Shown in pieces: positions 1-8,284 of a stretch of 8,284 nucleotides of DNA. The stretch comes from Lentibacillus juripiscarius JCM 12147. GTDB lineage: Bacteria > Bacillota > Bacilli > Bacillales_D > Amphibacillaceae. Position numbers and translations under genes: made by a program. Position 1 is the first letter of the stretch. Each line of letters begins with the position of its first letter. Where the stretch lies: contig BBCA01000084.1 in the NCBI GenBank assembly GCA_001311805.1, positions 1 through 8,284 on the forward strand, in the 5' to 3' direction. Under the pieces are notes generated by a model. The model was not told the origin of the DNA, searched no databases, and saw only the letters and a program-made list of their open reading frames with translations.

Positions 1-2
1 TT

Positions 3-368
3 CTAGTTGGACTGGTTTTGTACTTTGTCTTCCAGCTCTTTCAGGCTTGATTCGATTTGCATCAGGTATTCCTGGATATTCTCCTGGTGTGGGTCCACCG
101 TTTCTTTCCATGTTTTAACGGAATTTTTCATTTCTTGTGTAAGTTCCCTAACCAGAACAGCTCCCTCTTTGGACGTTTGCGTGATCTGTTCTTTCAAACG
201 AATGCTATCGTTTCTTAGCTTTTCAAAAAGCTCCTTCCATTCCACACTTTGCTCTTTTGCCCGATTACGAAGATCCTTGCCGGATTCAGGTGTGCTCAGC
301 AATGCTGTAGCAGCACCAGCCGCGCCGCCGGCAATAATGCCAAGAATAAACGATTTTCCCTTTGCCAT
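3..368 (-). CDS. yhaH: YtxH-domain protein, YhaH-like
   Basis: A 121-residue protein with the YtxH-family layout: a short basic start (MAKGK), one glycine/alanine-rich membrane segment at about residues 6-24, the family-typical turn STPESGKDLR just after it, then a long charged helical tail (about 35-118) that probably forms a coiled coil. The start is supported by a GGAAGGGAG ribosome binding site about 9 bases upstream. It lies downstream of trpP on the same strand, and B. subtilis yhaH (about the same length) also sits beside trpP, so the symbol rests on family plus gene order. YtxH proteins are small membrane-anchored proteins, some of them stress-induced, with no defined biochemical activity. 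A trpP terminator lies between the two genes, so yhaH probably has its own promoter, which I could not identify. Confidence 0.88.
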   Translation of the reverse strand: MAKGKSFILGIIAGGAAGAATALLSTPESGKDLRNRAKEQSVEWKELFEKLRNDSIRLKEQITQTSKEGAVLVRELTQEMKNSVKTWKETVDPHQENIQEYLMQIESSLKELEDKVQNQSN

Positions 369-402
369 ACGTTTACGCTCCCTTCCACATTCTTCTATAT
401 TT

Positions 403-414
403 TTTACCGGTAAA
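403..414. promoter_or_regulatory. 12-bp perfect palindrome upstream of yhaH
   Basis: TTTACCGGTAAA is a perfect palindrome in the short gap between the trpP terminator and the yhaH start, about 35 bases upstream of that start. It could be an operator or chance. On the minus strand it is followed by an A-rich stretch and TATAGA, which could be part of a promoter, but the spacing does not fit a standard sigma-A pair. I assign no regulator. Confidence 0.25.
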
Positions 415-420
415 GATGCC

Positions 421-454
421 TAAAAATCCCCTGACAAAAGAGTGCCAGGGGATT
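421..454 (-). terminator. Rho-independent terminator of trpP
   Basis: On the minus strand a 9-bp perfect stem (AATCCCCTG pairing with CAGGGGATT, 446-454 with 425-433) with a 12-base loop runs into a TTTTTA tract. It begins about 30 bases past the trpP stop and ends before yhaH, so it separates the two transcripts. Confidence 0.85.
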
Positions 455-484
455 GATGGATGGATAGTGTTGCATGGTGTACAT

Positions 485-1004
485 CTAGGCTGCTTTCAGT
501 GGCTGTGACCGTTTTAATACAGATTGGACGATTGGATAAACAACTACCATGAAAGCTGTATTCAAGCACGCCGCCGGCAGTACGATCGTCGCAAACAGCA
601 GTGTGAACGCGCCGTCCATCAGCCCGATGATGTAGAGTGCGACGGTCAGGAAGATGGAACCACTGATCATCGTTCCGGCTGCGGTCAGTACCGGCACATT
701 TATTTTGCTGTTCATATGATCTTTGACTAGCAGCAGCAGCCCAAAAACAGGATACCGGTAATCGGTTTATCAATCATGTTTGCAATCTGTCCCCCGGGAG
801 TCTGTGTTGTCAATGCTGAAATGAAACCGGCTCCCAGTGATAATACAGCGACATATTTTGCTTTCGGGAAAAGCATGATTCCCAGAAACATCATGGAAAG
901 CAACATGTCAGGTTTCATTCCGTAAAGAATGGCGGTATAATAAAGTGCAATACAGCCCCAATCCCCAGCAGCATCGATAAAAGCACCAAAACTCTTGTAT
1001 TCAT
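485..1004 (-). pseudogene. trpP: Tryptophan transporter TrpP, broken by two frameshifts
   Basis: Three consecutive reading frames together spell one TrpP-like membrane protein. Frame 1 from ATG at 1004 gives MNTRVLVLLSMLLGIG and ends at HFIIPPFFTE. Frame 2 starts at 918 with MKPDMLLSMMFLGIMLFPK and includes TPGGQIANMIDKPITG. Frame 3 from about 740 gives LLLLVKDHMNSKINVPVL and ends at 485 with VLKRSQPLKAA. The shifts lie at about 919-922 (ACGGAATG, where ACGGGAATG would restore the frame) and 740-747 (a T5-G3 run). Each is repaired by one added base, giving about 173 residues, close to the B. subtilis protein of about 172. TrpP imports tryptophan through the cytoplasmic membrane. There is no other damage along the gene, so it is either very recently inactivated or carries sequencing errors. 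It lies downstream of hit on the same strand, with its own promoter and terminator. Confidence 0.85.
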
Positions 1005-1034
1005 TTCTAATCTCTCCTCTTCTCAGCTAAGCTA
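992..1034 (-). promoter_or_regulatory. TRAP-binding triplet repeat over the trpP start
   Basis: Read on the minus strand, six (T/G)AG triplets sit exactly five bases apart: TAG, TAG, GAG, GAG, GAG, TAG at 1034-1007, each separated by two bases. The same five-base register continues through the ATG (1004-1002), a TAC and a further GAG at 994-992, giving nine slots of which seven match KAG. In B. subtilis, tryptophan-loaded TRAP (MtrB) binds such a nine-repeat site over the trpP ribosome binding site and start and blocks translation. The ribosome binding site here (AGAGGAGAG) is itself made of the repeats, so the same mechanism is expected. The host's mtrB gene is not in this window. Confidence 0.87.
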
Positions 1035-1083
1035 ATGTTGGCTTTCCAGCTGTGCACGCTGCCAGCTGCGAAAACATACTATC

Positions 1084-1092
1084 AGTATAACA
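1084..1092 (-). promoter_or_regulatory. Extended -10 promoter for trpP
   Basis: The minus strand carries TGTTATACT, a TGn-type extended -10 with a good TATACT hexamer, in the gap between hit and trpP. No convincing -35 is seen 16-18 bases upstream. Transcription from it would give a leader of about 70 bases holding a CAGCTG inverted repeat (1049-1072 region) and then the TRAP site. Confidence 0.55.
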
Positions 1093-1129
1093 AAAAACCG
1101 CAAAAATAAAAGTGGTAATTTTCTAAAAT

Positions 1130-1555
1130 TTACAAAGATGCATTAAGTTCCTGTGCGATATTCTGAAGGTCATCCTGCGTGTAATCATCCGAATGTACTG
1201 TCCAGTTTGATGAAAACCCATCATTTTCTCCATAGCGCGGAATCAGGTGAATATGTAGGTGAAATACGGATTGGTCAGCGGGCTTTTCATTGTTGTTCAA
1301 AAGATTCATACCGATGGGCTGATAAGTACTTTTGATGGCGTCTGCGATTTTTGGGATGCGCTCAAACAATTTTCCGGCAACTTCCGGTGGTGTTTCGTAA
1401 ATATTCTTCGTATGTGTTTTCGGTATGACCAGTGTGTGTCCTTTTGTTACTTGGGAGATGTCCAGAAATGCATAAACGGCTTCGTCTTCATACACTTTTG
1501 CCGACGGAATTTCGCCGTCGATTATCTTGCAGAAAATACAATCCTCATGAGCCAT
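1130..1555 (-). CDS. hit: HIT-family nucleotide-binding protein Hit
   Basis: A 141-residue protein of the histidine-triad family, full length compared with B. subtilis Hit (about 145). The catalytic triad motif HLHIHLIP is at about residues 98-105. The N-terminal CIFCKII has the paired cysteines that, with downstream histidines, bind zinc in many HIT proteins, and residues 32-48 (DISQVTKGHTLVIPKTH) are the usual strand and nucleotide-contact region. HIT proteins of this branch hydrolyse purine nucleoside phosphoramidates or related adducts in the cytoplasm. The start has an AGGAG ribosome binding site nine bases upstream. It precedes trpP on the same strand. In B. subtilis the ecs transporter operon starts divergently beside hit. 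That operon is not seen here. Confidence 0.95.
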   Translation of the reverse strand: MAHEDCIFCKIIDGEIPSAKVYEDEAVYAFLDISQVTKGHTLVIPKTHTKNIYETPPEVAGKLFERIPKIADAIKSTYQPIGMNLLNNNEKPADQSVFHLHIHLIPRYGENDGFSSNWTVHSDDYTQDDLQNIAQELNASL

Positions 1556-1585
1556 GCCAAATCACTCCTGTTCCTGTTTTAATCT

Positions 1586-1615
1586 ATTGTATATTGAGAG
1601 CAGGGGAGAAGTAAA
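1586..1615 (-). promoter_or_regulatory. Probable sigma-A promoter of hit
   Basis: On the minus strand TTTACT (1615-1610) and TACAAT (1591-1586) are separated by 18 bases, and the -10 lies about 30 bases upstream of the hit start. Both hexamers are imperfect, so this is a candidate only. Confidence 0.4.
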
Positions 1616-1631
1616 GCAATCCTAAAGAAAA

Positions 1632-1659
1632 CTTGGCAAGCGCCAAGCCTTTTAGGCGC
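1632..1659. repeat. Two overlapping hairpins at the junction with the accessory block
   Basis: CTTGGC (1632-1637) pairs with GCCAAG (1642-1647) over a 4-base loop, and GCGCC (1640-1644) pairs with GGCGC (1655-1659). The two share bases, so only one can form at a time. The region 1556-1870 has no supported gene. It holds the hit promoter, this element, an AT-rich stretch and the first repeat fragment of the array. From memory similar GCCAAGCCTTTTAGGCGC-like segments recur in Bacillaceae genomes, which I cannot verify here. Confidence 0.4.
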
Positions 1660-1797
1660 AGGTACTTAGCTTAGTTGCACTTATAATTAGGACGTTAAAA
1701 TTTTTACTGTATAGAGTAATCACCTTAGCAAAATGAGGGTGGAGTCTTCTCGCCTAAAATGATAAAGTTTGATACATTTACATTGACAAACCAATTG

Positions 1798-1831
1798 CAA
1801 CTGTTCCGCAAACGGGCCATTTTATTGCATA
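1798..1831 (+). repeat. Array repeat, copy 1 (partial)
   Basis: CTGTTCCGCAAACGGGCCAT followed by TTTATTGCATAA matches the ends of the fuller copies: the TATTCCGTAAA part and the AAGGGCCATTTT part. The central GGGCGC...GCGCC hairpin is missing, as if the middle had been deleted. It lies just upstream of the first small gene and marks the left edge of the array. Confidence 0.55.
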
Positions 1832-1870
1832 AAATTCAAAGTGTATTCCATTTAAGAGAAGGTGTAAAAG

Positions 1871-2107
1871 ATGAAAAAATACGTGGTGTTTATATTAAGT
1901 TTCGGTTTGTTATATGTGGTAGGTCAAGTTTTATCAGGTTGGCTTCTGACAGCACTTTATACTCCCGACCTATCTTCAGTGAATGGTAATATTGAACAAG
2001 AAGTGGAATTTGGTCGGATTTCAATAATTCCTTTTTTGATAACCCTTTTGGTGGCGACCATAGCCTACTTTTTCTCTCAAAGATTATTTATATCTAGGAA
2101 CAAATAG
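1871..2107 (+). CDS. Small two-span membrane protein, unknown function
   Basis: A 78-residue protein with two strongly hydrophobic segments, about residues 5-30 (VVFILSFGLLYVVGQVL) and 50-70 (SIIPFLITLLVATIAYFF), joined by an acidic loop and ending in a basic tail (RLFISRNK). A GAGAAGGTG ribosome binding site lies six to seven bases before the ATG, and the stop is followed at once by a repeat copy. I cannot assign a family or function. It resembles uncharacterised small Bacillus membrane proteins. It is the first gene of the array. Confidence 0.78.
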   Translation: MKKYVVFILSFGLLYVVGQVLSGWLLTALYTPDLSSVNGNIEQEVEFGRISIIPFLITLLVATIAYFFSQRLFISRNK

Positions 2108-2110
2108 TTC

Positions 2111-2222
2111 ACCAATCGGGCGCTTATCGCGAACAAGGTAAGCGTCATTTTTAGAGAAAAAGGATTGAGTTAGTTCCTGGAATTTGAAATAATTGGTATA
2201 AATCAAAGGCAGTATTGTTAAA
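2111..2222 (+). repeat. Array repeat, copy 2 (long form)
   Basis: A hairpin GGCGCTTA (2119-2126) with TAAGCGTC (2139-2146), eight pairs including one G-T, is followed by ATTTTT, so it could end transcription of the upstream gene. About 70 further bases (through TGAAATAATTGGTATAA) are closely matched by copy 6 at 3982-4097. These two copies form a long-form subfamily. The tail contains TGGTATAAA, which resembles an extended -10 and might start transcription of the next gene. That is inference. Confidence 0.8.
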
Positions 2223-2241
2223 TGTAGTCTGGAGGTTTAAA

Positions 2242-2508
2242 GTGAGAAACTGGATTTTTCACAGCCTCAACATAATGGTTTTTATTATTGTAGAGGCAAT
2301 CTGTTTATTTGCTTTTTTAAGTGTTAATTCACTTTTTATTCGTTTTATTATTATAGCTACTGTTGTTTGGTGGGGAATTTTTTATTTTATTCAATTTCGA
2401 AAAGAAACATATGCTTGGAGACTTATCTGGTTTTTAATTTCTGTAACCGTTTTGTGGTTTTGGATAGATTACTGGAATTTCGCATCGTTAGGGGGCTGGA
2501 AGATTTAA
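2242..2508 (+). CDS. Small three-span membrane protein, first of a tandem pair
   Basis: Start chosen at GTG 2242, not the upstream ATG at 2215, because a GGAGG lies seven bases before the GTG and because the protein from there (VRNWIFHSLNI) aligns from its first residue with the next gene product (MRNRIFHILNI). 88 residues with three hydrophobic segments at about 9-30, 33-53 and 62-80. Tryptophan-rich: VVWWGIFYFIQFRKE then WRLIWFLIS matches VWWGAFYWIQLSRKE and WRVAWFLIS of the neighbour. Function unknown. It ends directly at the next start codon (TAA then ATG), so the two are probably co-translated. Confidence 0.78.
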   Translation: MRNWIFHSLNIMVFIIVEAICLFAFLSVNSLFIRFIIIATVVWWGIFYFIQFRKETYAWRLIWFLISVTVLWFWIDYWNFASLGGWKI

Positions 2509-2790
2509 ATGAGAAATCGGATTTTTCACATCCTCAACATAGTTATTTTAATAATTATTGTACCGATTAGTCTATTAGCTTGGTTCGGAAATGCAATGAG
2601 CCAGGTGTCTTACCCTGGGATAGACTTTGCAATTATGACGACTTATGTGTGGTGGGGTGCTTTTTATTGGATTCAGCTTTCAAGAAAAGAGACCGTATGG
2701 CGAGTGGCTTGGTTCCTCATCTCCCTCGGTGTTCTATCGTATTGGATGGCTGGTGGCGGTGCCTCTTTCTGGAATTTGATATTCGAATAA
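2509..2790 (+). CDS. Small three-span membrane protein, second of a tandem pair
   Basis: 93 residues, paralogous to the preceding gene along its whole length, with the same three hydrophobic segments and the conserved YVWWGAFYWIQLSRKE block. The duplication is also visible in the DNA and includes the ribosome binding site and start: CTGGAGGTTTAAAGTGAGAA upstream of the first gene corresponds to CTGGAAGATTTAAATGAGAA here. The ribosome binding site is weaker (GGAAG) and the start abuts the previous stop, so translational coupling is likely. The product differs mainly in the middle (GNAMSQVSYPG) and the C-terminal tail. Unknown function. Confidence 0.78.
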   Translation: MRNRIFHILNIVILIIIVPISLLAWFGNAMSQVSYPGIDFAIMTTYVWWGAFYWIQLSRKETVWRVAWFLISLGVLSYWMAGGGASFWNLIFE

Positions 2791-2866
2791 ATTAGATGAA
2801 AGTCTTTGAAAGTCTTAACATAGCTAATCTAATAAAATGCAATCGTGATAGCAGCCAACAACAGGA

Positions 2867-2950
2867 CTATTCCGTAAAAGGGCGCACTTCTGGAATAAGG
2901 ATCAGCGCCCGCATTATACATAAGGGCCATTTTGTGGAGCAGTGTATGTT
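2867..2950 (+). repeat. Array repeat, copy 3 (full form)
   Basis: The best full copy. TATTCC (2868-2873) can pair with GGAATA (2892-2897), and GGGCGC (2880-2885) can pair with GCGCCC (2905-2910). The two pairings interlock. The 3' part AAGGGCCATTTTGTGGAGCA follows. It lies in the 200-base gap after the tandem pair. The rest of the gap (2791-2866, 2951-2989) shows no gene. Confidence 0.8.
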
Positions 2951-2989
2951 AAAATTGAAATAAATCATCGGTAAAAGGAGTTTTATTTT

Positions 2990-3152
2990 ATGACGACAAA
3001 AGAGTTAAATAAAAATAAAATCAGAATAGATATTTCTCGAACTATACTCGCAATACTTCTGTTCTTTGGTATATACACTTTTTTTTAATAAGGAACCGGT
3101 CGCTGCTAAGTTACTTGCAATGGGAGGTTCTATTGGATTTTGTTTTTATTAA
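2990..3152 (+). pseudogene. Small one-span protein gene, frameshifted in a T tract
   Basis: ATG at 2990 has an AAAAGGAG ribosome binding site nine bases upstream. The frame reads MTTKELNKNKIRIDISRTIL then AILLFFGIYTFF and stops at 3088 after 32 residues, inside a run of eight T (3079-3086). With one T fewer it continues as NKEPVAAKLLAMGGSIGFCF and ends at 3152, about 53 residues. A second shift in the T5 run at 3143-3147 would allow a further LLIMSFRSLSTSNN. The T8 run could be a slippage switch, a sequencing error or a real mutation. The product as written is a very short basic peptide with one membrane segment. No function can be assigned. Confidence 0.5.
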
Positions 3153-3201
3153 TTATGTCCTTTAGGTCGCTATCAACATCAAATAATTAATCATCTATTT
3201 A

Positions 3202-3245
3202 GTTCCATTAAAGGGTGCTATTACTGAACAAATTTGTGGTGATTT
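3202..3245 (+). repeat. Array repeat, copy 4 (degenerate)
   Basis: TTCCATTAAAGGGTGCTATT, then ACTGAACAAA and TTGTGGTGAT, follow the order of the full copies (TTCCGTAAAAGGGCGC, CTGGAATAA, TTGTGG) with several changes, including GGGTGC for GGGCGC. The 3' hairpin arm is not recognisable. Confidence 0.45.
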
Positions 3246-3268
3246 TGAAAGAAGGGGCGGGACTTTAA

Positions 3269-3478
3269 TTGACATATTTTAAAATCAGTATAGTTCTATT
3301 TTTGATTAGCATATGTCTGTTGCTTATTGGGTTATTTGTGGAGAAGATAAATTATGGCTTTATTATTGCGGGTATGATTGTCAATTATATAGGGGTGGCT
3401 ATGATGATAACTGGTGCTATAAAAGGTTTAAAAAAGTTAATTAAAGTTGTTCTTCAATCGGGCGCTTTCGCGGAATAA
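3269..3478 (+). CDS. Small two-span membrane protein whose C-terminus is encoded by a repeat
   Basis: A 69-residue protein starting at TTG 3269, chosen because GAAGGGGCGGGA lies about seven bases upstream. Two hydrophobic segments at about 4-24 and 29-51, then a basic stretch (KGLKKLIK). The last residues, LQSGAFAE, and the stop are read from repeat copy 5 (CAATCGGGCGCTTTCGCGGA then ATAA), so the repeat contributes the end of the protein. Function unknown. Confidence 0.75.
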   Translation: MTYFKISIVLFLISICLLLIGLFVEKINYGFIIAGMIVNYIGVAMMITGAIKGLKKLIKVVLQSGAFAE

Positions 3479-3480
3479 TT
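3455..3480 (+). repeat. Array repeat, copy 5 (5' part only)
   Basis: CAATCGGGCGCTTTCGCGGA followed by ATAA matches the 5' half of the other copies. The GCGCC arm and the GGGCCATTTT part are absent, and the sequence passes directly into the leader of the acetyltransferase gene. The stop of the preceding ORF is the TAA of the conserved GGAATAA. Confidence 0.6.
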
Positions 3481-3546
3481 GCAGGATTTTTGATGGAAAA
3501 TTGAATGAGAAAATAAGCTGACATACATTTAAAGAGGAGATTAGCA

Positions 3547-3981
3547 ATGGATACTCCAACTATTAAAGAACTTCAATCCCGAGGGGAAATTCTTGAGGCT
3601 TTTCCAGTAATAAATCAATTACGTACTCATCTTGATAAAAAAGCCTATCTTGATTTGGTAACGGAAGCCAAGGAAAGGGACATGTACAGACTATTCGCTT
3701 TGTATGACCAAGGAGAAATTGTTGCGGTTACAGGGTTTAAACCCATGATCACACTTTATTACGGGCGCTTTGTTTGGGTATGCGATTTGGTCACTGATGA
3801 AAATAAACGTTCAAATGGTTATGGTGAAAGCCTGTTATCCTACGTACATGAGTGGGCTAAAGCAAGTGGCTACGAAAGCGTTGCCTTATCATCAGGATTA
3901 AAGCGTACCAATGCACACCGATTTTATGAAGAAAAAATGAATTATGACAAAGTGAGCTTTGTATTTAAAAAACCTTTATAA
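3547..3981 (+). CDS. GNAT-family N-acetyltransferase
   Basis: A 144-residue single-domain GNAT protein, the normal length for the family. Strands at about 66-84 ([17 protein letters not shown]) lead into the acetyl-CoA pyrophosphate loop [11 protein letters not shown] (about 88-98, the R/Q-x-x-G-x-G/A type), followed by the helix [12 protein letters not shown] and the C-terminal strand and helix with [19 protein letters not shown], typical of motif B. It should transfer acetyl from acetyl-CoA to an amine. The substrate cannot be told. The ribosome binding site GAGGAGA is six to seven bases before the ATG. It is the only clearly enzymatic single-gene unit of the array, between repeat copies 5 and 6. 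Confidence 0.88.
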
Positions 3982-4097
3982 AGCAAACGGGCGCTTATCG
4001 CGAATAAGGTAAGTGCCATTTTTATAGAAAAAAGATTGAGTTAATTCTTGGAATTTGAAATAATTGGTATCAAGTTAAAGGGACAGATTGTTGTATA
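3982..4097 (+). repeat. Array repeat, copy 6 (long form)
   Basis: Very similar over about 110 bases to copy 2. The hairpin GGCGCTTA (3990-3997) with TAAGTGCC (4010-4017) is followed by ATTTTT. The G-T pair falls at the same stem position as in copy 2, where the changed base differs on the 3' arm, so pairing is kept. It could act as a terminator for the acetyltransferase gene. Confidence 0.8.
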
Positions 4098-4181
4098 AAT
4101 TTTGGTGAGTTTTCACGGTAAGAAAGGCAGAAAGGGTGACATCCAATTTTTCTACTTATAAAGGTGGTCTTGGGAGTTCTA

Positions 4182-4247
4182 ATGTTTATCGCAGGATATA
4201 AAACTGCAGAAAAAACAAATAAAAGAAGTAAATTATTACGGAGGTAA
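4182..4247 (+). CDS. Possible small-protein remnant
   Basis: ATG at 4182 with GGGAG five bases upstream opens a 21-residue frame with the basic tail KTAEKTNKRSKLLRR. The same frame is open back to a stop at about 4137 and would add PIFLLIKVVLGVL, a plausible membrane segment, but no good start with a ribosome binding site precedes it. It may be the 3' part of a damaged array gene, or a short basic peptide, or nothing. It occupies the position of a gene between repeat copies 6 and 7. Nothing else is seen in 4098-4254. Confidence 0.3.
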   Translation: MFIAGYKTAEKTNKRSKLLRR

Positions 4248-4254
4248 CAGTTAA

Positions 4255-4325
4255 TGCAACCGGGCACTGTTCCAGAATAAAGGGTAACGTCCAAATTGCA
4301 ATTGTAGGGCCAGATTGTGGCACAG
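4255..4325 (+). repeat. Array repeat, copy 7 (divergent)
   Basis: GCAACCGGGCACTGTTCCAG, then AATAAAGG, AACGTCC and TAGGGCCAGATTGTGG, follow the order of the full copies with GGGCAC for GGGCGC and CCAGAATAA for CTGGAATAA. The central hairpin is weak (GGGC or GGAC type against GTCC). Confidence 0.55.
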
Positions 4326-4526
4326 GGAATTAACTACTTAGGGGGGGATTGTATTGCAACAAAGAAAATTATTTTGGTTAGGTTTTTATTGTTTGCTGTA
4401 GGTGGCCTATCTTTGGCTGTAATTCAAAATGAATTTAACAGTACTAACATCATATTTTTTATTATTGCTGTGACTGGATTACTTCTTATTAGCGTACCTA
4501 AAATTAGGAAAAATAAGGAAACCTAA
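4317..4526 (+). CDS. Small two-span membrane protein, start uncertain
   Basis: The open frame from GTG 4317 gives 69 residues, with two hydrophobic segments (about 18-36, ILVRFLLFAVGGLSLAVI, and 44-61, NIIFFIIAVTGLLLISV) and the basic tail PKIRKNKET. The GTG lies inside repeat copy 7 and has no strong ribosome binding site, so it is probably not the real start. A strong AGGGGGGG site at 4340-4347 points to a start near 4353. In frame only an ATT is there, whereas TTG at 4354 is one base out of frame. A missing A in the run at 4365-4368 would join that TTG to the membrane frame. Function unknown. Confidence 0.6.
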   Translation: MAQGINYLGGDCIATKKIILVRFLLFAVGGLSLAVIQNEFNSTNIIFFIIAVTGLLLISVPKIRKNKET

Positions 4527-4566
4527 ACAACGGCTCAGACATAGTGGTATTAGTTGAATATCTTAA

Positions 4567-4650
4567 GCAATCGGGCGCTAATCAGGAATAAATATTAGCG
4601 CCTAATCTGGCTATAGGGATCAGATTGCGGTGTCAAATATGGATCATTAC
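4567..4650 (+). repeat. Array repeat, copy 8 (strong hairpin)
   Basis: GGCGCTAAT (4574-4582) and ATTAGCGCC (4594-4602) form a perfect 9-bp stem with an 11-base loop, the longest central hairpin in the array. The stem extension (TAAT with ATTA) differs from that of other copies, which suggests that pairing is conserved while sequence drifts. The 3' part is divergent (TATAGGGATCAGATTGCGG). Confidence 0.75.
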
Positions 4651-4666
4651 GAGGGGAGTGTGAATT

Positions 4667-4870
4667 ATGCAAAGAACAAGAAAAAATACAGTGTTAAAGG
4701 CAATCGGACTTTCACTGCTTTTTACGATTATTGCTTTTCTTGTTGTAGATAACCCTAAGCCTAATACAGCAGTTTATTTGCTTGTTGGGTGGATTGTTTC
4801 ATTTGCAGCAATTTGCATTATATCTTTAATCACCTCAAGAGCACATAAGAAATTTTTGAAAGAGAGTTAA
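4667..4870 (+). CDS. Small two-span membrane protein, unknown function
   Basis: 67 residues: a basic start (MQRTRKNTVLK), hydrophobic segments at about 11-28 (AIGLSLLFTIIAFLVV) and 35-56 (AVYLLVGWIVSFAAICIISL), a short polar turn DNPKPNT between them, and a basic tail (RAHKKFLKES). This predicts both ends in the cytoplasm. A GAGGGGAG ribosome binding site lies eight bases before the ATG. No family recognised. It is flanked by repeat copies 8 and 9. Confidence 0.78.
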   Translation: MQRTRKNTVLKAIGLSLLFTIIAFLVVDNPKPNTAVYLLVGWIVSFAAICIISLITSRAHKKFLKES

Positions 4871-4878
4871 ACTGTTCT

Positions 4879-4990
4879 ACAATACCAGCTCATAGCAGAA
4901 AAAGACTATTCAATCATCGGGCGCAAATCTGGAATAAAGCTGCGCCTGATATTGCTTTAAAGGGCCATTTTGTGGAACAAGATGCTTTAT
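4879..4990 (+). repeat. Array repeat, copy 9 (full form)
   Basis: Contains both pairings: TATTC (4907-4911) with GAATA (4932-4936), and GGCGCA (4920-4925) with TGCGCC (4941-4946), interlocked. The 3' part is AAAGGGCCATTTTGTGGAAC. The 5' part, AATACCAGCTCATAGCAGAA followed by AAAGACTATTCAATCATCGG, is almost identical to that of copy 12 (6351-6396), with two differences in about 44 bases. Confidence 0.8.
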
Positions 4991-5000
4991 TGAGAGGGTG

Positions 5001-5342
5001 TTGAATATTAGTGATTGTATTCCTACTAATGAGCATAATAGATTAAAAAATAAATTACTGATTCGTACTTTTGTTTCTATTCCAATAACCATAAGTTTCA
5101 CAGTTTATTTATATAGTTCGCTTCTTCAAGGTGAGCTGAGAGGTCTTAATAACCTATTGTATTTAATCGTTGTGACCCTTATTACAGTATCAATAATTTG
5201 GATTTTAATGAATACAGCTAACCAAATTAAAAAGGAAAAGCAAAGGGAATTTAAAAAGAAGAATAAAAGCAAAAAACGTATCGCCATTGAGTATGTTTTA
5301 ATTATTCTATTGCTTATCGTACTCGTTGCTTACGCCTTATAA
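5001..5342 (+). CDS. Three-span membrane protein with a lysine-rich loop
   Basis: About 113 residues from TTG 5001. GTG 4998 in the same frame directly abuts the GAGAGGG ribosome binding site, and the TTG too is only about three to four bases from it, so the start is not certain. A polar N-terminus is followed by hydrophobic segments at about 20-40 (LIRTFVSIPITISFTVYLY), 51-72 (LLYLIVVTLITVSIIWILM) and 95-112 (YVLIILLLIVLVAYAL). Between the last two is a strongly basic loop (KKEKQREFKKKNKSKKR) that should face the cytoplasm and could touch nucleic acid or lipid head groups. No family recognised. It lies between repeat copies 9 and 10. Confidence 0.75.
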   Translation: MNISDCIPTNEHNRLKNKLLIRTFVSIPITISFTVYLYSSLLQGELRGLNNLLYLIVVTLITVSIIWILMNTANQIKKEKQREFKKKNKSKKRIAIEYVLIILLLIVLVAYAL

Positions 5343-5361
5343 ATATCTGGTGTGTGGTATT

Positions 5362-5440
5362 AAATAATCGGGCGCATTTCTGGAACAATGAATCTGCGCC
5401 CAATATTGAAGAAAAGGGCCATTTAGTTGCATAAGTAAGG
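5362..5440 (+). repeat. Array repeat, copy 10 (full form)
   Basis: AATAATCGGGCGCATTTCTG then GAACAATG, with a perfect 7-bp stem GGGCGCA (5370-5376) with TGCGCCC (5395-5401), then AAAAGGGCCATTTAGTTGCA. It follows directly on the preceding gene. Confidence 0.8.
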
Positions 5441-5451
5441 GGGGAGAATAA

Positions 5452-5736
5452 TTGGATTCAGTATTGAGTTTATTAGGCAACATAGCCACTATGATTTTCT
5501 TTTCATTCAAGGATATTACCGAGGAAGAAATTGAAAATAACATTAAATATTTAGAGCAAGAAAAGTGGTTTCAAGCATATTTAAACAATGATAAATATAA
5601 TAAACTGATTGCTAATAACACCACGATACGTAAGGTGATCGGAAGCATAAATATTAATAAGATGTCAAAACCAAATTATCATAAAAGGCAACAAATTAGG
5701 GTTGAAAAAGTAATTAATAAACAAACCGCCAATTAG
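5452..5736 (+). CDS. Small protein with one N-terminal hydrophobic segment
   Basis: 94 residues from TTG 5452, with AAGGGGGGAG about six bases upstream. A short hydrophobic N-terminus (LSLLGNIATMIFFSF, about 5-19) precedes an acidic helix (DITEEEIENNIKYLEQEKWF) and a long Asn/Lys-rich, basic C-terminus (KPNYHKRQQIRVEKVINKQ). It is unlike the other array products, which are mainly membrane spans. It might be a membrane-anchored or secreted basic protein. No family recognised. Confidence 0.7.
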   Translation: MDSVLSLLGNIATMIFFSFKDITEEEIENNIKYLEQEKWFQAYLNNDKYNKLIANNTTIRKVIGSININKMSKPNYHKRQQIRVEKVINKQTAN

Positions 5737-5746
5737 TGGTTTTAAA

Positions 5747-5820
5747 CTTATTCCAGAATAGGGCGCAAGAACGGAATAAGTCTTACTCCTACCTTTGGTT
5801 TAAAGGTAGAGGAACATTTT
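5747..5820 (+). repeat. Array repeat, copy 11 (variant with two hairpins)
   Basis: CTTATTCC (5747-5754) pairs perfectly with GGAATAAG (5773-5780) around a GGGCGC box (5761-5766). This is the outer pairing of the full copies, longer here. The usual GCGCC arm is missing. A different 8-bp hairpin, CTACCTTT (5789-5796) with AAAGGTAG (5802-5809), stands in its place, before GAGGAACATTTT in the position of GGGCCATTTT. Confidence 0.65.
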
Positions 5821-5841
5821 AATAATTGGAAGGAAAGTTGG

Positions 5842-6308
5842 ATGAGTAAAGAGGATGAATCGTTTCGATATTTGAAACTTCGGCAGAAAATAATTGTTGT
5901 ATTAGCTCTTACTTTAGTTGTTTCAATTGCAATTGCTATTGTTTTGGTGGATTCTTTTTTGGACTCACAGGTTTTTTCTCTTTGATTGGTGTGACCTATG
6001 AATCCACTGGAACCTTACTTCTATTTGTTCTCTATTGTTTTTTAATAGGTATTATTTTCGAGGTAATCGAAAAGATAGTCTTGGTTTTATAGTGAAGGCA
6101 AATATCCGTCAAAGTGAAAAAATTTCTTTGGACAGTATTTGTTAAGTTTGGGTTAACTTGGGTTGTGATTTATACGGTTGATGAATTAATGGGTACGATC
6201 ACTCTCTCTGGGTTTGCAGAATTTTTGACTGCACTTCTAATAGTCAGTATAGATATGATATTTGATGATGAAAAAGGAACAACGAAAAGAAATAACAGAT
6301 TAAAGTAA
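5842..6308 (+). pseudogene. YrvL-like membrane protein, broken by frameshifts
   Basis: ATG 5842 has a GGAAGGAAAG ribosome binding site. Frame 1 gives MSKEDESFRYLKLRQK and a first membrane segment, then stops at 5985. The continuation is read in another frame as GLTGFFSLIGVTYESTG then TLLLFVLYCFLIGIIFEVIE up to 6092, next as IVKANIRQSEK, and finally from about 6123 as FLWTVFVKFGLTWVVIYTVD then ELMGTITLS and MIFDDEKG to the stop at 6308. Together these make about 155 residues with four or five membrane spans, matching the layout I recall for the family Pfam names after B. subtilis YrvL. The shifts fall at the T6 run 5955-5960, the T4 run 6085-6088 and the A6 run 6117-6122. Sequencing error is as likely as decay. 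As written only short fragments could be made (the last from GTG 6114). Confidence 0.65.
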
Positions 6309-6350
6309 CTGAGTCATTCAATTAAATTAAGATATTTATTCCATAACACC

Positions 6351-6430
6351 CTAATACCAGCTAATTGCAGAAAAAGACTATTCAATCATCGGGCGCTTTT
6401 CTTTAATTAGGATTTGCGTCAATATTTATT
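6351..6430 (+). repeat. Array repeat, copy 12
   Basis: The 5' part is nearly identical to that of copy 9 (AATACCAGCTAATTGCAGAA then AAAGACTATTCAATCATCGG). The hairpin is weaker: GGCGC (6392-6396) with GCGTC (6416-6420), one G-T pair. The GGGCCATTTT part is missing, and the sequence runs into a promoter for the next gene pair. Confidence 0.7.
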
Positions 6431-6459
6431 ATGAAGTTCTATGGTAAATGTCTAAATAG

Positions 6460-6468
6460 TGATATAAT
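6460..6468 (+). promoter_or_regulatory. Extended -10 promoter of the protease gene pair
   Basis: TGATATAAT is a consensus TATAAT with the extended TGn motif. No good -35 is seen. Transcription would start near 6475, which makes the ATG at 6477 essentially leaderless and supports the TTG at 6495 as the start. It is the clearest promoter within the array, just 3' of a repeat copy. Confidence 0.6.
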
Positions 6469-6494
6469 AATGTTAAATGAAAGGGGCGGTAAAA

Positions 6495-6737
6495 TTGAAA
6501 TGGTCAGAAGTTAGAAATATGTACCCGGATCAATTTGTTAAACTGAAAGTACTATCGTCTCATATTGAAAATTATCGAGAAATCATTGAAGATATGGCTG
6601 TTATAAGACCTGTACCGGACGAATCAGCAACAAAAGAACTTTTAAAATCAAAAGATGAAGATTTAGTTTATCACACTTCCCATGAAAATATTGTACTTGA
6701 AGTCCGGCAAGATGTAGGGTTGAGGAGATTCTACTAA
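6495..6737 (+). CDS. Small soluble partner protein of the retropepsin-like protease
   Basis: 80 residues from TTG 6495, which has AAGGGGCGG five to eight bases upstream. The ATG at 6477 would lie upstream of that ribosome binding site and is rejected as the start. The product (LKWSEVRNMYPDQFVKLKVL at the N-terminus, MAVIRPVPDE in the middle, DLVYHTSHENIVLEVR and VGLRRFY at the end) is soluble, mixed alpha/beta in look and has no membrane segment. From memory, proteins of this WSEVR-x-x-YP-x-Q-FV type often sit directly before small aspartic proteases in Bacilli. I know of no function. The next gene starts one base after its stop, and that gene's ribosome binding site (GAGGAGA) lies in its final codons. 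Confidence 0.75.
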   Translation: MKWSEVRNMYPDQFVKLKVLSSHIENYREIIEDMAVIRPVPDESATKELLKSKDEDLVYHTSHENIVLEVRQDVGLRRFY

Positions 6738-6738
6738 C

Positions 6739-7119
6739 ATGAAAATAAAATACAAACATGGATTGCTACTAGTGGATATGACGCTGAGATATAATGGGAA
6801 AAATAAAGTGATCGAAAATTTGGTGGTGGATACAGGGGCTGCTCGAACACTCGTTTCTCAAAATGCAGTAGATGATATTGGTATGCAGGTTGATTCACAT
6901 GATAAGATTGTCACTTATTATGGAATTGGTGGAAAAGAGTATGCATTTAGAAAAAATGTAGACAGTATCCAAATCAGTGACTATACGATTGAAAGCATCG
7001 AAGTCGATTTTAATGATTTTGGATATGAGGATATTAACGGATTGCTTGGATTAGATTTGTTAATGCAAGCTGGATTTACTATAGACTTATTACAGCTTGA
7101 AATGAATAGAAAGAGTTGA
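6739..7119 (+). CDS. Retropepsin-like aspartic protease family protein
   Basis: 126 residues with the catalytic signature VVDTGAARTLVS at about 28-39 (Asp-Thr-Gly-Ala) and the C-terminal INGLLGLDLL at about 99-108, the hydrophobic-hydrophobic-Gly element of retropepsin-like domains. In between are beta-strand-rich segments, with the flap-like TYYGIGGKEY at about 60-69. It has one catalytic Asp per chain and the length of a single domain, so it should work as a homodimer, as in retroviral proteases. There is no signal peptide or membrane anchor, so it is cytoplasmic. It is probably co-translated with the preceding gene and ends at a terminator, so the pair forms one unit. Target unknown. The partner protein is a natural candidate for substrate or regulator, which is inference. 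Confidence 0.85.
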   Translation: MKIKYKHGLLLVDMTLRYNGKNKVIENLVVDTGAARTLVSQNAVDDIGMQVDSHDKIVTYYGIGGKEYAFRKNVDSIQISDYTIESIEVDFNDFGYEDINGLLGLDLLMQAGFTIDLLQLEMNRKS

Positions 7120-7122
7120 GGG

Positions 7123-7152
7123 GGAATCCTAAAGGGGGTTCCTTTTATCTTT
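7123..7152 (+). terminator. Rho-independent terminator of the protease unit
   Basis: GGAATCC (7123-7129) pairs with GGGTTCC (7136-7142), seven pairs with one G-T, over a 6-base loop, and is followed by TTTTATCTTT. It starts four bases past the protease stop. Confidence 0.75.
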
Positions 7153-7185
7153 ATAAGTGATGATTATTACAGATGGTTTAAACTC

Positions 7186-7243
7186 TTAATTATTAGACTA
7201 TTCTGCGAACTGGCGCTGTTCTAAAATAATTTTATAAGCGGAC
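7186..7243 (+). repeat. Array repeat, copy 13 (degenerate, right end)
   Basis: AGACTATTCTGCGAACTGGC then GCTGTTCTAAAATAA follows the order of the 5' half of the repeat (GACTATTC, GGCGC, TTCTGGAATAA) with changes in each box. It is the last recognisable copy and marks the right edge of the array, directly next to a different, GC-rich repeat. Confidence 0.45.
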
Positions 7244-7246
7244 TCT

Positions 7247-7376
7247 CAGATGATTGGAGTGGAAGGTGGCGACTCCTGCGGGAATAGCATGAGCTGAAGA
7301 CCCCGCAACGAAGCGTAGCGATGAGGGCTGAAGCCATGCCCGCGGAAAGCGTCCGCCTGGAACGGAAATCAACGGG
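7247..7376. repeat. GC-rich dispersed Bacillaceae repeat
   Basis: A stretch of about 130 bases with GATTGGAGTGGAAGG, GGCGACTCCTGCGGGAA, GACCCCGCAACGAAGCG, TGCCCGCGGAAAGCGTCCGC and CTGGAACGGAAATCAACGGG. From memory this is a repeat found in many copies between genes of many Bacillaceae. It contains hairpins such as GCGGG (7278-7282) with CCCGC (7302-7306) and GCGG with CCGC (7342-7355). Its base composition is much richer in GC than the array. Open frames across it on either strand are not taken as genes. Its function is not known to me. Confidence 0.7.
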
Positions 7377-7405
7377 TTGTACGCTATACCCCTAACGGGC
7401 GTAAG

Positions 7406-7640
7406 ATGAATAAGAAGCTTTTGGTGATGTTTAGCGTAAAGGCGAAAACCTTTACGATTGGAAATACAGAAATGCACTATGTTGTCTTTGGAAAAGGAGA
7501 AGTACCTCTTTTGATCATACCGAGGTTGTGAGACGGATTACAGGAAATCCTCAAAGGCTTTAGCTTTCATTTATCGATAATATGCTTAAAATACAGGGTG
7601 TATTTTTGCAGTCGGAAGACCCACCTGCCAAAGGTTTAGC
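7406..7640 (+). pseudogene. Decayed alpha/beta-hydrolase gene, N-terminal part
   Basis: ATG 7406 opens MNKKLLVMFSVKAKTFTIGN then TEMHYVVFGKGEVPLLIIP and stops at TGA 7531. The typical continuation of a Bacillus alpha/beta-hydrolase is still readable in pieces in different frames: DGL after the stop, then KALAFIYR (stop) YA, then YRVYFCSRKTHLPKG up to about 7640. The nucleophile elbow and the rest of the domain are absent. At least two stops and several indels are present, and not only at homopolymer runs, so this is true decay. A perfect 8-bp hairpin (7435-7442 with 7449-7456) lies inside the first frame. No gene is seen between 7641 and 7787. Confidence 0.6.
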
Positions 7641-7787
7641 ACCACAATCCGTACGACAAGCATCGACGGTTTATATCATTATCATATCACACTCCTCCCT
7701 CAATTCTTCATCAAATCATTACACACAGTTAATGCCCACTTTACATTTAGGTGATATGGTTGATGTGTAATAGGAGGGAGGAAACAA

Positions 7788-8284
7788 ATGAATATACGTG
7801 CATTGTTCATTGATATGGATGGAACATTGCTGACGTCATCAAATGAGATTTCACAACGCAATGCGGAAACGATCAACAGATTGACAAATCAGGGTGTTAA
7901 AGTTTTTCTGGCGACAGGGCGTCAATATGAGATCACAGCACCTTACCATAGTCTGCTTGGCTTGAAAGCACCGATGATCTGCCTGAATGGTGCTTCCATT
8001 CATGATGGATTCACTGGAAGGGTTGTCCAGATGAATCCGGTTGTGCTGGATGAGGCGCACTTTCATCGTGTAACGAATGAAATCCCGTGCAATATCATTG
8101 TGCACACAACTGACGGTTTCTATTGCAACAAGACGTGCAAGGAGGTTGATGAGTGGACCAGGGAAGGCAAGGTTCCGCCAAGGTATATCGGCGACTTGCG
8201 GCATGTAGATTACCGGAACGTGCTGAAATGCAGTGTCAGGACAGGCTGCCACGGTTCGCATATGTCACATTTATTTAGTGATGC
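7788..8284 (+). CDS. Cof-type HAD-superfamily hydrolase (5' part)
   Basis: The open frame from ATG 7788 runs off the window after 165 codons. Cof-type (HAD-IIB) proteins are usually about 260-290 residues, so a little over half is visible. Motif I, DMDGT, is at residues 9-13 with nucleophile Asp9 and acid/base Asp11. Motif II is the Thr of FLATGRQ at residue 43. MICLNGASIHD follows where the family has its conserved NGA segment, and the C2-type cap domain begins about residue 80. Such enzymes dephosphorylate small phosphorylated metabolites, such as sugar phosphates or flavin precursors, in the cytoplasm. The exact substrate is not deducible. A very strong ribosome binding site (TAGGAGGGAGG) is seven to eight bases upstream. 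Base composition is closer to hit than to the array, so this is probably core chromosome again. Confidence 0.92.
   Translation, partial: MNIRALFIDMDGTLLTSSNEISQRNAETINRLTNQGVKVFLATGRQYEITAPYHSLLGLKAPMICLNGASIHDGFTGRVVQMNPVVLDEAHFHRVTNEIPCNIIVHTTDGFYCNKTCKEVDEWTREGKVPPRYIGDLRHVDYRNVLKCSVRTGCHGSHMSHLFSD

Follow-up and report, generated by a model that had tools for sequence, protein, structure and literature searches.

A probable integron-like system of gene cassettes in Bacilli, examined from an array of Lentibacillus juripiscarius

INTRODUCTION

A contig of the salt-loving bacillus Lentibacillus juripiscarius JCM 12147 (BBCA01000084.1, positions 1 to 8,284; this whole stretch of 8,284 nucleotides is called the window below) contains a run of small open reading frames (ORFs) that alternate with copies of a degenerate repeat. 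Are these ORFs mobile gene cassettes and, if so, what moves them? An earlier note, made from the letters of the window alone, had counted 13 copies or partial copies of the repeat between 1798 and 7243, all in one direction, and had suggested a gene-cassette array that is not a classical integron, perhaps an undescribed capture or shuffling system of Bacillaceae. Our comparisons argue that the window holds an array of mobile gene cassettes. It probably represents an integron-like cassette system of Bacilli that has its own recombinases and its own sites, an analogue of integrons and dif modules but a member of neither. A literature search, with most subscription papers and all bioRxiv preprints outside its coverage, found no description of such arrays in Bacilli.

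RESULTS

The repeat of the window is a dyad with a 6-bp spacer

The window was searched with the consensus GGGCGCNNNTCNNGAATAA, allowing up to three mismatches. This gave 13 matches, compared with 0.51 expected from shuffled sequences. One of them (5748-5766, minus strand) is a palindromic echo of the plus-strand site at 5761, leaving 12 plus-strand sites. A weight matrix trained on copies from relatives plus up to 10 of the 12 window sites recovers the same 12, and finds zero sites on the minus strand of the window or outside the array. All 12 are 30-bp dyads with 12-bp inverted arms and a 6-bp spacer of consensus GGGCGC, spanning 2106-7228 (Table 1). We label this main site LH. In four of the 12 a second dyad, RH, with the spacer GGGCCA, lies 43-46 bp 3′ of LH, and a 13th copy at 1802-1831 is a hybrid that has the left arm of LH and the spacer GGGCCA. 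The number and the single direction of the repeats are therefore as the earlier note gave them, as 12 sites and one hybrid, although the limits of the array are 1802-7228. The ORFs between the sites are small and lie on the same strand as the sites.

In 523 copies, found with a site model that favours the consensus, GGGCGC is conserved at 95-98% per position. The consensus 12-base arms of these copies are inverted copies of each other around the exact centre of the spacer, and no core of the GTTRRRY type is present in the consensus. Across all the loci examined, spacer subtypes GGGCGC, GGGTGC and GGGGGC were seen. As judged from its sequence, the 12-6-12 dyad has the plan of a tyrosine-recombinase core site. 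When six mismatches are allowed, the second dyad is found in 186 of the 523 copies, 131 times at 43-45 bp and 20 times at 34-35 bp.

A terminator-like hairpin (GGGCGC.../...GCGCC) overlaps the spacer, with the GCGCC motif about 25 bp downstream. The two sides covary in 56 dereplicated copies, with many G-U pairs, and none of 200 shuffles reaches the observed values; a second covariation analysis, using an alignment that leans to structure, also supports the hairpin. Covariation that includes many G-U pairs makes a transcription terminator likely, and the spacer would then probably form one side of an RNA hairpin terminating the preceding gene.

Arrays of the site occur in many genomes

A model built on the repeat's first half was run against sixteen genomes picked from 80 loci encoding the HIT protein that adjoins the array. 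Fifteen had matches, with up to 77 in one genome. The window and 60 fetched array loci (L numbers below; G numbers are genomes) together gave 452 matches at E ≤ 0.05, all but one locus being matched. The matches lie mostly on one strand of each array (59 of the 60 loci with matches). L127, L134 and L139 have stretches of both directions, and about a dozen other loci have one or two minority-strand matches that are often palindrome echoes.

Clustering was examined in two Lentibacillus genomes with 74 and 88 model matches, each on one contig (4.04 and 3.86 Mb), using the 67 of 74 and 83 of 88 matches that were listed. Neighbouring listed matches are no more than 5 kb apart in 50 of 66 and 62 of 82 cases, where random placement would give about 5 and 8, and these close neighbours are on the same strand in 49 of 50 and 61 of 62 cases. 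Each chromosome has about eleven clusters of at least two sites. Scattered copies in random orientation, as found for miniature inverted-repeat transposable elements (MITEs) or repetitive extragenic palindromes, would have spoken against an array according to the earlier note; the two chromosomes have one-way clusters instead.

When 159 genomes from the family were scanned, 51 had matches at E ≤ 1e-5, the scan scoring no more than 39 candidates in each. The median length of 478 cassettes of 180-3000 bp is 690 bp. An ORF of at least 90 amino acids is present in 353, running along the array in 305 and against it in 48, several of the latter being transposase genes. Viral contigs gave zero matches to one strict exact site pattern, and BLAST against plasmids with one repeat copy, with the window and with a 666-bp cassette gave no match.

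Many shared cassettes end at the spacer

For six of the 12 window cassettes, the other fetched array loci, including those of other species, contain matching DNA of at least 110 bp. Three that lie within 3.8 kb in the window (3460, 4573 and 6391) have counterparts at about 395 kb, 2.969 Mb and 128 kb in L. sp. CBA3610, and others are found in L. jeotgali and L. salicampi. The order of the window is absent from these arrays, so the fixed gene order in relatives that would have contradicted a cassette array is not what we find.

The borders of shared DNA were examined in 101 loci, using 240 alignments of at least 88% identity and 150-3000 bp with both ends inside the loci. An end was counted at a site if, on either sequence, the start fell -16 to +8 or the end -3 to +22 bases from the start of the spacer. 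On this basis 86 alignments start and 129 end at a site (6.4 and 6.5 expected from random placement), and 58 do both, compared with 0.18 expected. About twenty of the 58 are one 826-bp cassette that is present eight times. Grouping reduces the 58 to 33 cassettes, of which 25 occur in at least two genomes, while grouping all 240 gives 32 of 108 distinct segments. The idea of a gene-cassette array is supported by these site-ended segments. Placing the borders at the 6-bp spacer means that most of each repeat moves with the downstream gene. The repeat does follow the ORFs, as first described, but it is not merely their tail, since the border lies inside it.

The clearest single case is an extra 806-bp cassette, with its own GGGCGC, that lies in G159 between two cassettes that are adjacent in V. 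indicus. The V. indicus junction reads ...cttccagaata|GGGCGC|gattctcaaac..., the flanking cassettes of G159 are 98 and 97% identical, and the joints lie within GGGCGC. A search for differences of a single cassette gave 22 candidate pairs, of which L169/L245 was examined closely; most of the others lack joints at recognised sites. In the window, the match of the aspartic protease cassette to CBA3610 near 128 kb (L111; 783 bp, 97.2% identical) starts one base inside the spacer. Its identity fades about 37 bases short of the next spacer, and the downstream end of this match is inexact.

These data bear on an explanation that needs no recombination system, in which the repeats are terminators or MITE-like insertions and ordinary homologous recombination swaps the genes between them. 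A hairpin that covaries with many G-U pairs is what a working RNA hairpin would give. However, the V. indicus/G159 joints lie inside a 6-bp spacer between differing arms, the spacer bounds shared segments much more often than chance would give, site orientation is nearly uniform, and 1.59 Mb of control loci contain just four sites. Of the alternatives considered here we regard this as the least probable, with a very slight chance of being correct.

A family of tyrosine recombinases accompanies the sites

A tyrosine recombinase of 280 amino acids is found inside or beside arrays. The residues of its catalytic pattern (R141, K165, H232, R235, H258 and Y267) are invariant in 14 proteins. The array recombinases score below the cut-offs of the eight families compared. 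For two proteins the NCBIfam equivalogs of XerC and XerD (TIGR02224/02225) give 191-207 bits against cut-offs of 330-335, and the Xer/XerA-type model NF040815 gives 210-214 bits, slightly below its cut-off of 220. Many relatives (P0005, P0025, P0051 and others) are named 'site-specific tyrosine recombinase/integron integrase' by NCBI; the 'integron integrase' label is the name of the broad model NF040815. A protein search gave 1294 relatives at E ≤ 1e-40, and among the best 120 of these the named ones are almost all from Bacilli. Phage records gave no match to the recombinase. Three tyrosine recombinase genes in a row were also seen, which we take to be 'recombinases in trio'.

Two types of array recombinase, A and B, were studied; they are about 67% identical. 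The 32 recombinase loci (two of which overlap by 7 kb) contain 140 sites, compared with four in the 80 control loci. The fourth base of the spacer follows the recombinase, with C:T of 66:4 for type B and 14:47 for type A (p = 4e-18). The spacer matrices drew on 12 of the 32 loci; in the 20 outside matrix building the ratios are 32:2 for B and 4:25 for A (p = 4e-11). Nine of the 14 C sites beside type A come from V. indicus, the array of which has B-type sites. In a tree of 23 chosen recombinases the two gene orientations fall on the two sides of a 100/100 branch, type B genes being oriented along the array. By raw count, 13 of 26 type A genes have an opposite-strand site 54-61 bp past the stop codon. 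In 13 type A flanks the arm on the recombinase side is 80% alike and the sequence beyond the site 51% (random 43%). Where complete, the order in the array direction is the same for both types: cassette site, recombinase, landing-type site. Sites with GGGCCA also adjoin some recombinase genes.

Type B is present in 11 of the 19 genomes with at least four matches and in two of the 140 others (p = 2e-10), an association that ignores shared ancestry. Fifteen genomes have at least 10 GGGTGC sites, and a recombinase of at least 50% identity is present in eight of them compared with 11 of the 144 others, genomes with type B alone not being counted. Across the class the gene was found in 23 of 398 sampled genomes, sometimes in several copies. 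Ten of 20 class-wide loci that were fetched have at least five scored sites on one strand (palindrome echoes included). Some of the 20 have the spacer GGGGGC, and a Sporosarcina plasmid carries a recombinase gene with a site 56 bp past its stop codon. With the plasmid and other Bacilli the system extends beyond Bacillaceae, the family named in the first suggestion.

L226 and L281 share a 6.25-kb stretch that is 99.7% identical and ends at a site; past that site the recombinase regions diverge (78%), and one of the two genomes carries an additional 1.66 kb. This is a possible exchange next to the recombinase. The cassette of the broken L. salicampi recombinase also has a PemK/MazF-type toxin (Pfam; L144:2465-2969) with a small upstream ORF, and a near-identical toxin ORF pair adjoins the recombinase copy of L. 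kapialis (L162).

Could the host XerC and XerD move the cassettes? They do so in the dif modules of Acinetobacter, which have inversely oriented pdif sites of 11-6-11 layout and insertion sequence (IS) elements that hunt the sites (PMC10132070). The likeness is considerable, with modules bordered by tyrosine-recombinase sites that have a 6-bp centre, a 12-6-12 layout close to 11-6-11, toxin-antitoxin cargo and site-hunting IS elements. In addition the array recombinases are Xer-like, sharing the catalytic pattern of the simple Xer/XerA-type enzymes (NF040815, TIGR02224/02225), and there are arrays where no array recombinase was found. However, the present sites are direct, homotypic and mostly chromosomal. 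Neighbours up to 5 kb apart in the two chromosomes share a strand in 49 of 50 and 61 of 62 cases, unlike an inversely oriented pdif pair, and in place of one XerC and one XerD arm there are two like arms of 12 bases around a G+C-rich spacer, GGGCGC. The arrays moreover carry a recombinase family of their own which, unlike the Xer/XerA-type enzymes, is array-borne, is sometimes multicopy and has two clades tied to site spacers. We therefore consider it unlikely that host Xer proteins move the cassettes.

Comparison with integrons

As in integrons, the arrays consist of small one-gene cassettes, mostly unknown, that point the same way, have one site each and are swapped between arrays and species. 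Some arrays lack a recombinase, and IS110-type elements and group II introns visit them. Elements of both kinds associate with attC, the integron site, which is a folded single-strand hairpin with a RYYYAAC/GTTRRRY core. The present system would function as an integron does and lacks two of its defining features, the integrase and the motif and fold of attC; the earlier view that this is no classical integron thus holds. None of 12 genomes has a protein above the IntI cut-off (TIGR02249), and two array recombinases reach 91 and 101 bits, where 265 are required. IntI carries a specific insertion in its catalytic domain (PMC8138268). In V. indicus the IntI profile is matched at 10-180 and 234-301 and not between; the insertion would lie in the unmatched part. 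The sites, judged by core motif and fold, are conserved double-strand dyads that lack GTTRRRY, the cassette border is at the upstream side of the repeat, and the arrays form about eleven clusters in each of two chromosomes.

A true integron remnant, a cluster of attC sites lacking an integrase (CALIN), would be made of attC cassettes from Gram-negative integrons served by an IntI integrase. It would have the same outcome of small genes in one direction with one site per gene, often without a recombinase. At the consensus level the LH left arm and the RH right arm are indeed complementary (64% of cells paired, compared with 36-46% when slid). Integrons are described as extremely rare in Firmicutes, for which IntegronFinder 2.0 reports one complete integron and a few CALIN, the latter in Firmicutes genera, in the whole phylum (PMC9024848). 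The IntI scores and the unmatched region of the profile between 180 and 234 speak against such a remnant, as do a fixed GGGCGC spacer with arms fixed in sequence and the absence of GTTRRRY. Nor does an attC-like outer stem covary, 37 of 200 shuffles reaching its pairing and 59 of 200 its covariation score in the 56 copies. We judge a CALIN origin to be highly unlikely.

Insertion elements and introns in the arrays

A 1.6-kb IS110-family element (PF01548 on the L117 copy) occupies the reverse complement of 550-2147 in L117, with one end at a spacer. Similar copies are present in L126, L129, L134, L141, L142, L152, L154, L158 and L161. The end of the element resembles the left arm of the site (TATAATACGATC), making it a counterpart of the IS elements that hunt attC or dif sites. 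In the window two cassettes share a 38-base stretch directly before the spacer (4881-4918 and 6353-6390). It begins AATACCAGC and resembles the left end of the IS110 element, of which it may be a remnant. Group II intron RNA pieces (RF02004, RF00029) lie inside the L117 array (10793-11509, minus strand) and have relatives in many other array loci; group IIC introns occur at attC sites.

Such an element might itself be the engine, moving cassettes along with itself. It is multicopy, and in five genomes (G001, G003, G005, G006 and G007) copies in array loci have one end at the spacer; two of the five, G003 and G006, lack the tyrosine recombinase of the arrays. Yet its other end lies at a variable distance from the upstream site, its gene opposes the array direction in the copies listed, it is present at some sites only, and dyads with a 6-bp centre suit tyrosine recombinases. 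There are precedents for IS elements that target dif sites but do not move modules (PMC10132070). The chance that IS110 drives the arrays thus seems very small.

Features of the window and its flanks

The recognised features of the array are collected in Table 1. Two of its ORFs have clear Pfam matches. Many of the remaining ORFs resemble small membrane proteins, and their family matches are all below cut-off. A search of the window against Rfam gave just three sub-threshold matches, which we take as chance.

Table 1. Sites and cassettes of the window array (LH, main site; RH, second dyad; aa, amino acids)
Feature	Position	Strand	Remarks
Hybrid 12-6-12 site	1802..1831	+	LH-like left arm, RH-type spacer GGGCCA; left end of array
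Cassette ORF, 78 aa, likely small membrane protein	1871..2107	+	43% tblastn matches in array loci L151, L132
LH site	2106..2135	+	Spacer GGGCGC at 2118
Cassette, two related tandem ORFs (2242-2508, 2509-2790)	2242..2790	+	549 bp, 86.5%, L. jeotgali array contig L153
LH site	2868..2897	+	Spacer GGGCGC at 2880
RH site	2912..2941	+	Spacer GGGCCA, 44 bp past LH spacer
Possible cassette ORF, 32 aa, weak	2990..3088	+	
LH site, GGGTGC variant	3201..3230	+	Spacer at 3213
Cassette ORF, 69 aa, likely membrane protein; end within next site	3269..3478	+	207 bp, 86%, L. salicampi array contig L144
LH site	3448..3477	+	Spacer at 3460
Cassette ORF, GNAT acetyltransferase, 144 aa	3547..3981	+	Pfam PF00583, E 1.4e-11; 83% protein identity, L. 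sp. CBA3610 array near 395 kb (L112)
LH site	3977..4006	+	Spacer at 3989
LH site	4250..4279	+	Spacer GGGCAC at 4262
RH site	4295..4324	+	Spacer GGGCCA, 45 bp past LH
Cassette ORF, 57 aa, likely membrane protein	4353..4526	+	
LH site	4561..4590	+	Spacer at 4573
Cassette ORF, 67 aa, likely membrane protein	4667..4870	+	308 bp, 87%, CBA3610 near 2.969 Mb (L123); 205 bp, 80%, L. salicampi (L150)
LH site	4907..4936	+	Spacer at 4919
RH site	4950..4979	+	Spacer GGGCCA, 43 bp past LH
Cassette ORF, 114 aa, likely membrane protein	4998..5342	+	384 bp, 84%, L. jeotgali L151
LH site	5358..5387	+	Spacer at 5370
RH site	5404..5433	+	Spacer GGGCCA, 46 bp past LH
Cassette ORF, 94 aa	5452..5736	+	No relative among fetched loci
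LH site	5749..5778	+	Spacer at 5761
Cassette, two short ORFs (5842-5985, 6114-6308)	5842..6308	+	No relative among fetched loci
LH site	6379..6408	+	Spacer at 6391
Two-gene cassette, 86-aa ORF and clan AA aspartic protease (6739-7119)	6477..7119	+	Pfam PF13650, E 1.6e-12
Last LH site	7199..7228	+	Spacer TGGCGC at 7211

The HIT protein that adjoins the array shares 89% identity with its Lentibacillus halodurans counterpart, the next best matches being in other Lentibacillus and in Virgibacillus. Homology of the window to the HIT loci of Lentibacillus stops at 1617-1631 in five of six loci and at 1569 in L. jeotgali. In the 80 HIT loci a loose pattern gave seven weak matches, none closer to HIT than 1.6 kb, and the later matrix gave four sites in total, so no array is seen beside HIT there. 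On the right, 7424-8282 is 93-95% identical to a stretch that adjoins an array in G060. Across the 50 kb of G060 that was compared, the window has one further match, of 71 bp, to part of the repeat. With the flank in common and the rest unmatched, the two genomes differ in the arrays at that flank.

Outside the array, 7264-7358 is a G+C-rich element with a sub-threshold match to the Staphylococcus aureus tsr24 RNA family (E 0.017), which we take to be a common intergenic repeat of Bacillaceae. There are two apparently broken genes. One (485-918, minus strand) encodes a membrane protein read in two frames, and the other (7406-7531, plus strand) is the start of a hydrolase-like ORF that is cut short.

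DISCUSSION

The recurring unit of these arrays extends between the spacers of two successive 12-6-12 dyads. It begins with the right arm of the upstream site and finishes with the left arm of the downstream one. Between them there is usually a single gene or small operon running the same way, and in about a third of units also the second dyad, mostly 43-45 bp on. We infer that the array recombinase is the engine of cassette movement. An Xer-like tyrosine recombinase would recombine two spacers, so that a cassette is excised as a circle and inserted at another site. The best-preserved recombinase genes have a cassette-type site at one flank, and their opposite flank, read in the array frame, has a GGGCAG or GGGCCA site. 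This GGGCAG or GGGCCA site probably serves as the preferred, attI-like landing site, and its type is also found as the second dyad in many repeats. This role is suggested by its position beside some recombinase genes, by the hybrid sites and by five pairs of cassette sites 43-45 bp apart, the spacing to which insertion into a second dyad would lead. Arrays with no recombinase gene may be served in trans or be relics, as are the integrase-less arrays of integrons.

A number of observations weigh against this reading. The 523 copies were gathered with the site model, and are biased towards its consensus. Both ends at a recognised site are lacking in 182 of the 240 alignments (76 of 108 grouped segments), and the V. 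indicus and G159 arrays are otherwise largely different, so that the 806-bp case does not come from a locus orthologous as a whole. Precise gain or loss of a unit at orthologous loci, proposed at the outset as the check, is thus represented by one single-cassette difference in an array that otherwise differs. Three of the 32 recombinase loci (L279, L282 and L290) have no site at threshold, and 10 of the 20 class-wide loci have four scored sites or fewer (control, 0.76 per 20 kb at that threshold). By raw count, a GGGCAG-like site lies 81-129 bp before the start of only six of 26 type A genes. For type B, an LH site lies 136-161 bp upstream of the start in five of 23 genes, and a GGGCCA or GGGCAG site 58-134 bp past the stop in seven. 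Several recombinase copies in Lentibacillus arrays are broken. Eight of the 19 array-rich genomes lack type B, including L. sp. CBA3610 (74 matches) and L. jeotgali (77). V. indicus, which is also among the eight, carries a type A gene within its array of B-type sites. The CBA3610 and L. jeotgali arrays have no array recombinase of either type; for these the recombinase may act in trans, may have been lost, or another enzyme may do the work.

The clustering of sites, the site-ended cassettes and the single-cassette difference nevertheless favour the capture or shuffling system that had been suggested. With more reserve, we incline slightly towards a wider proposal. This would be an independent equivalent of the integron, class-wide in Bacilli, that derives from Xer-like recombinases. 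It would have two-dyad sites with a terminator, GGGCAG/GGGCCA as the landing site, a recombinase that itself travels as a cassette, and three or more spacer subtypes that possibly keep cassette pools partly apart.

If true, a second, independent cassette system in Bacilli would mean that gene-cassette shuffling evolved more than once, and it would help to account for the pools of small unknown genes in these bacteria. A compact dyad-based recombinase with different spacers would be usable as a tool. The origin of cassette systems would also become testable, since these enzymes lie close to Xer proteins and the recombinase itself looks like a cassette.

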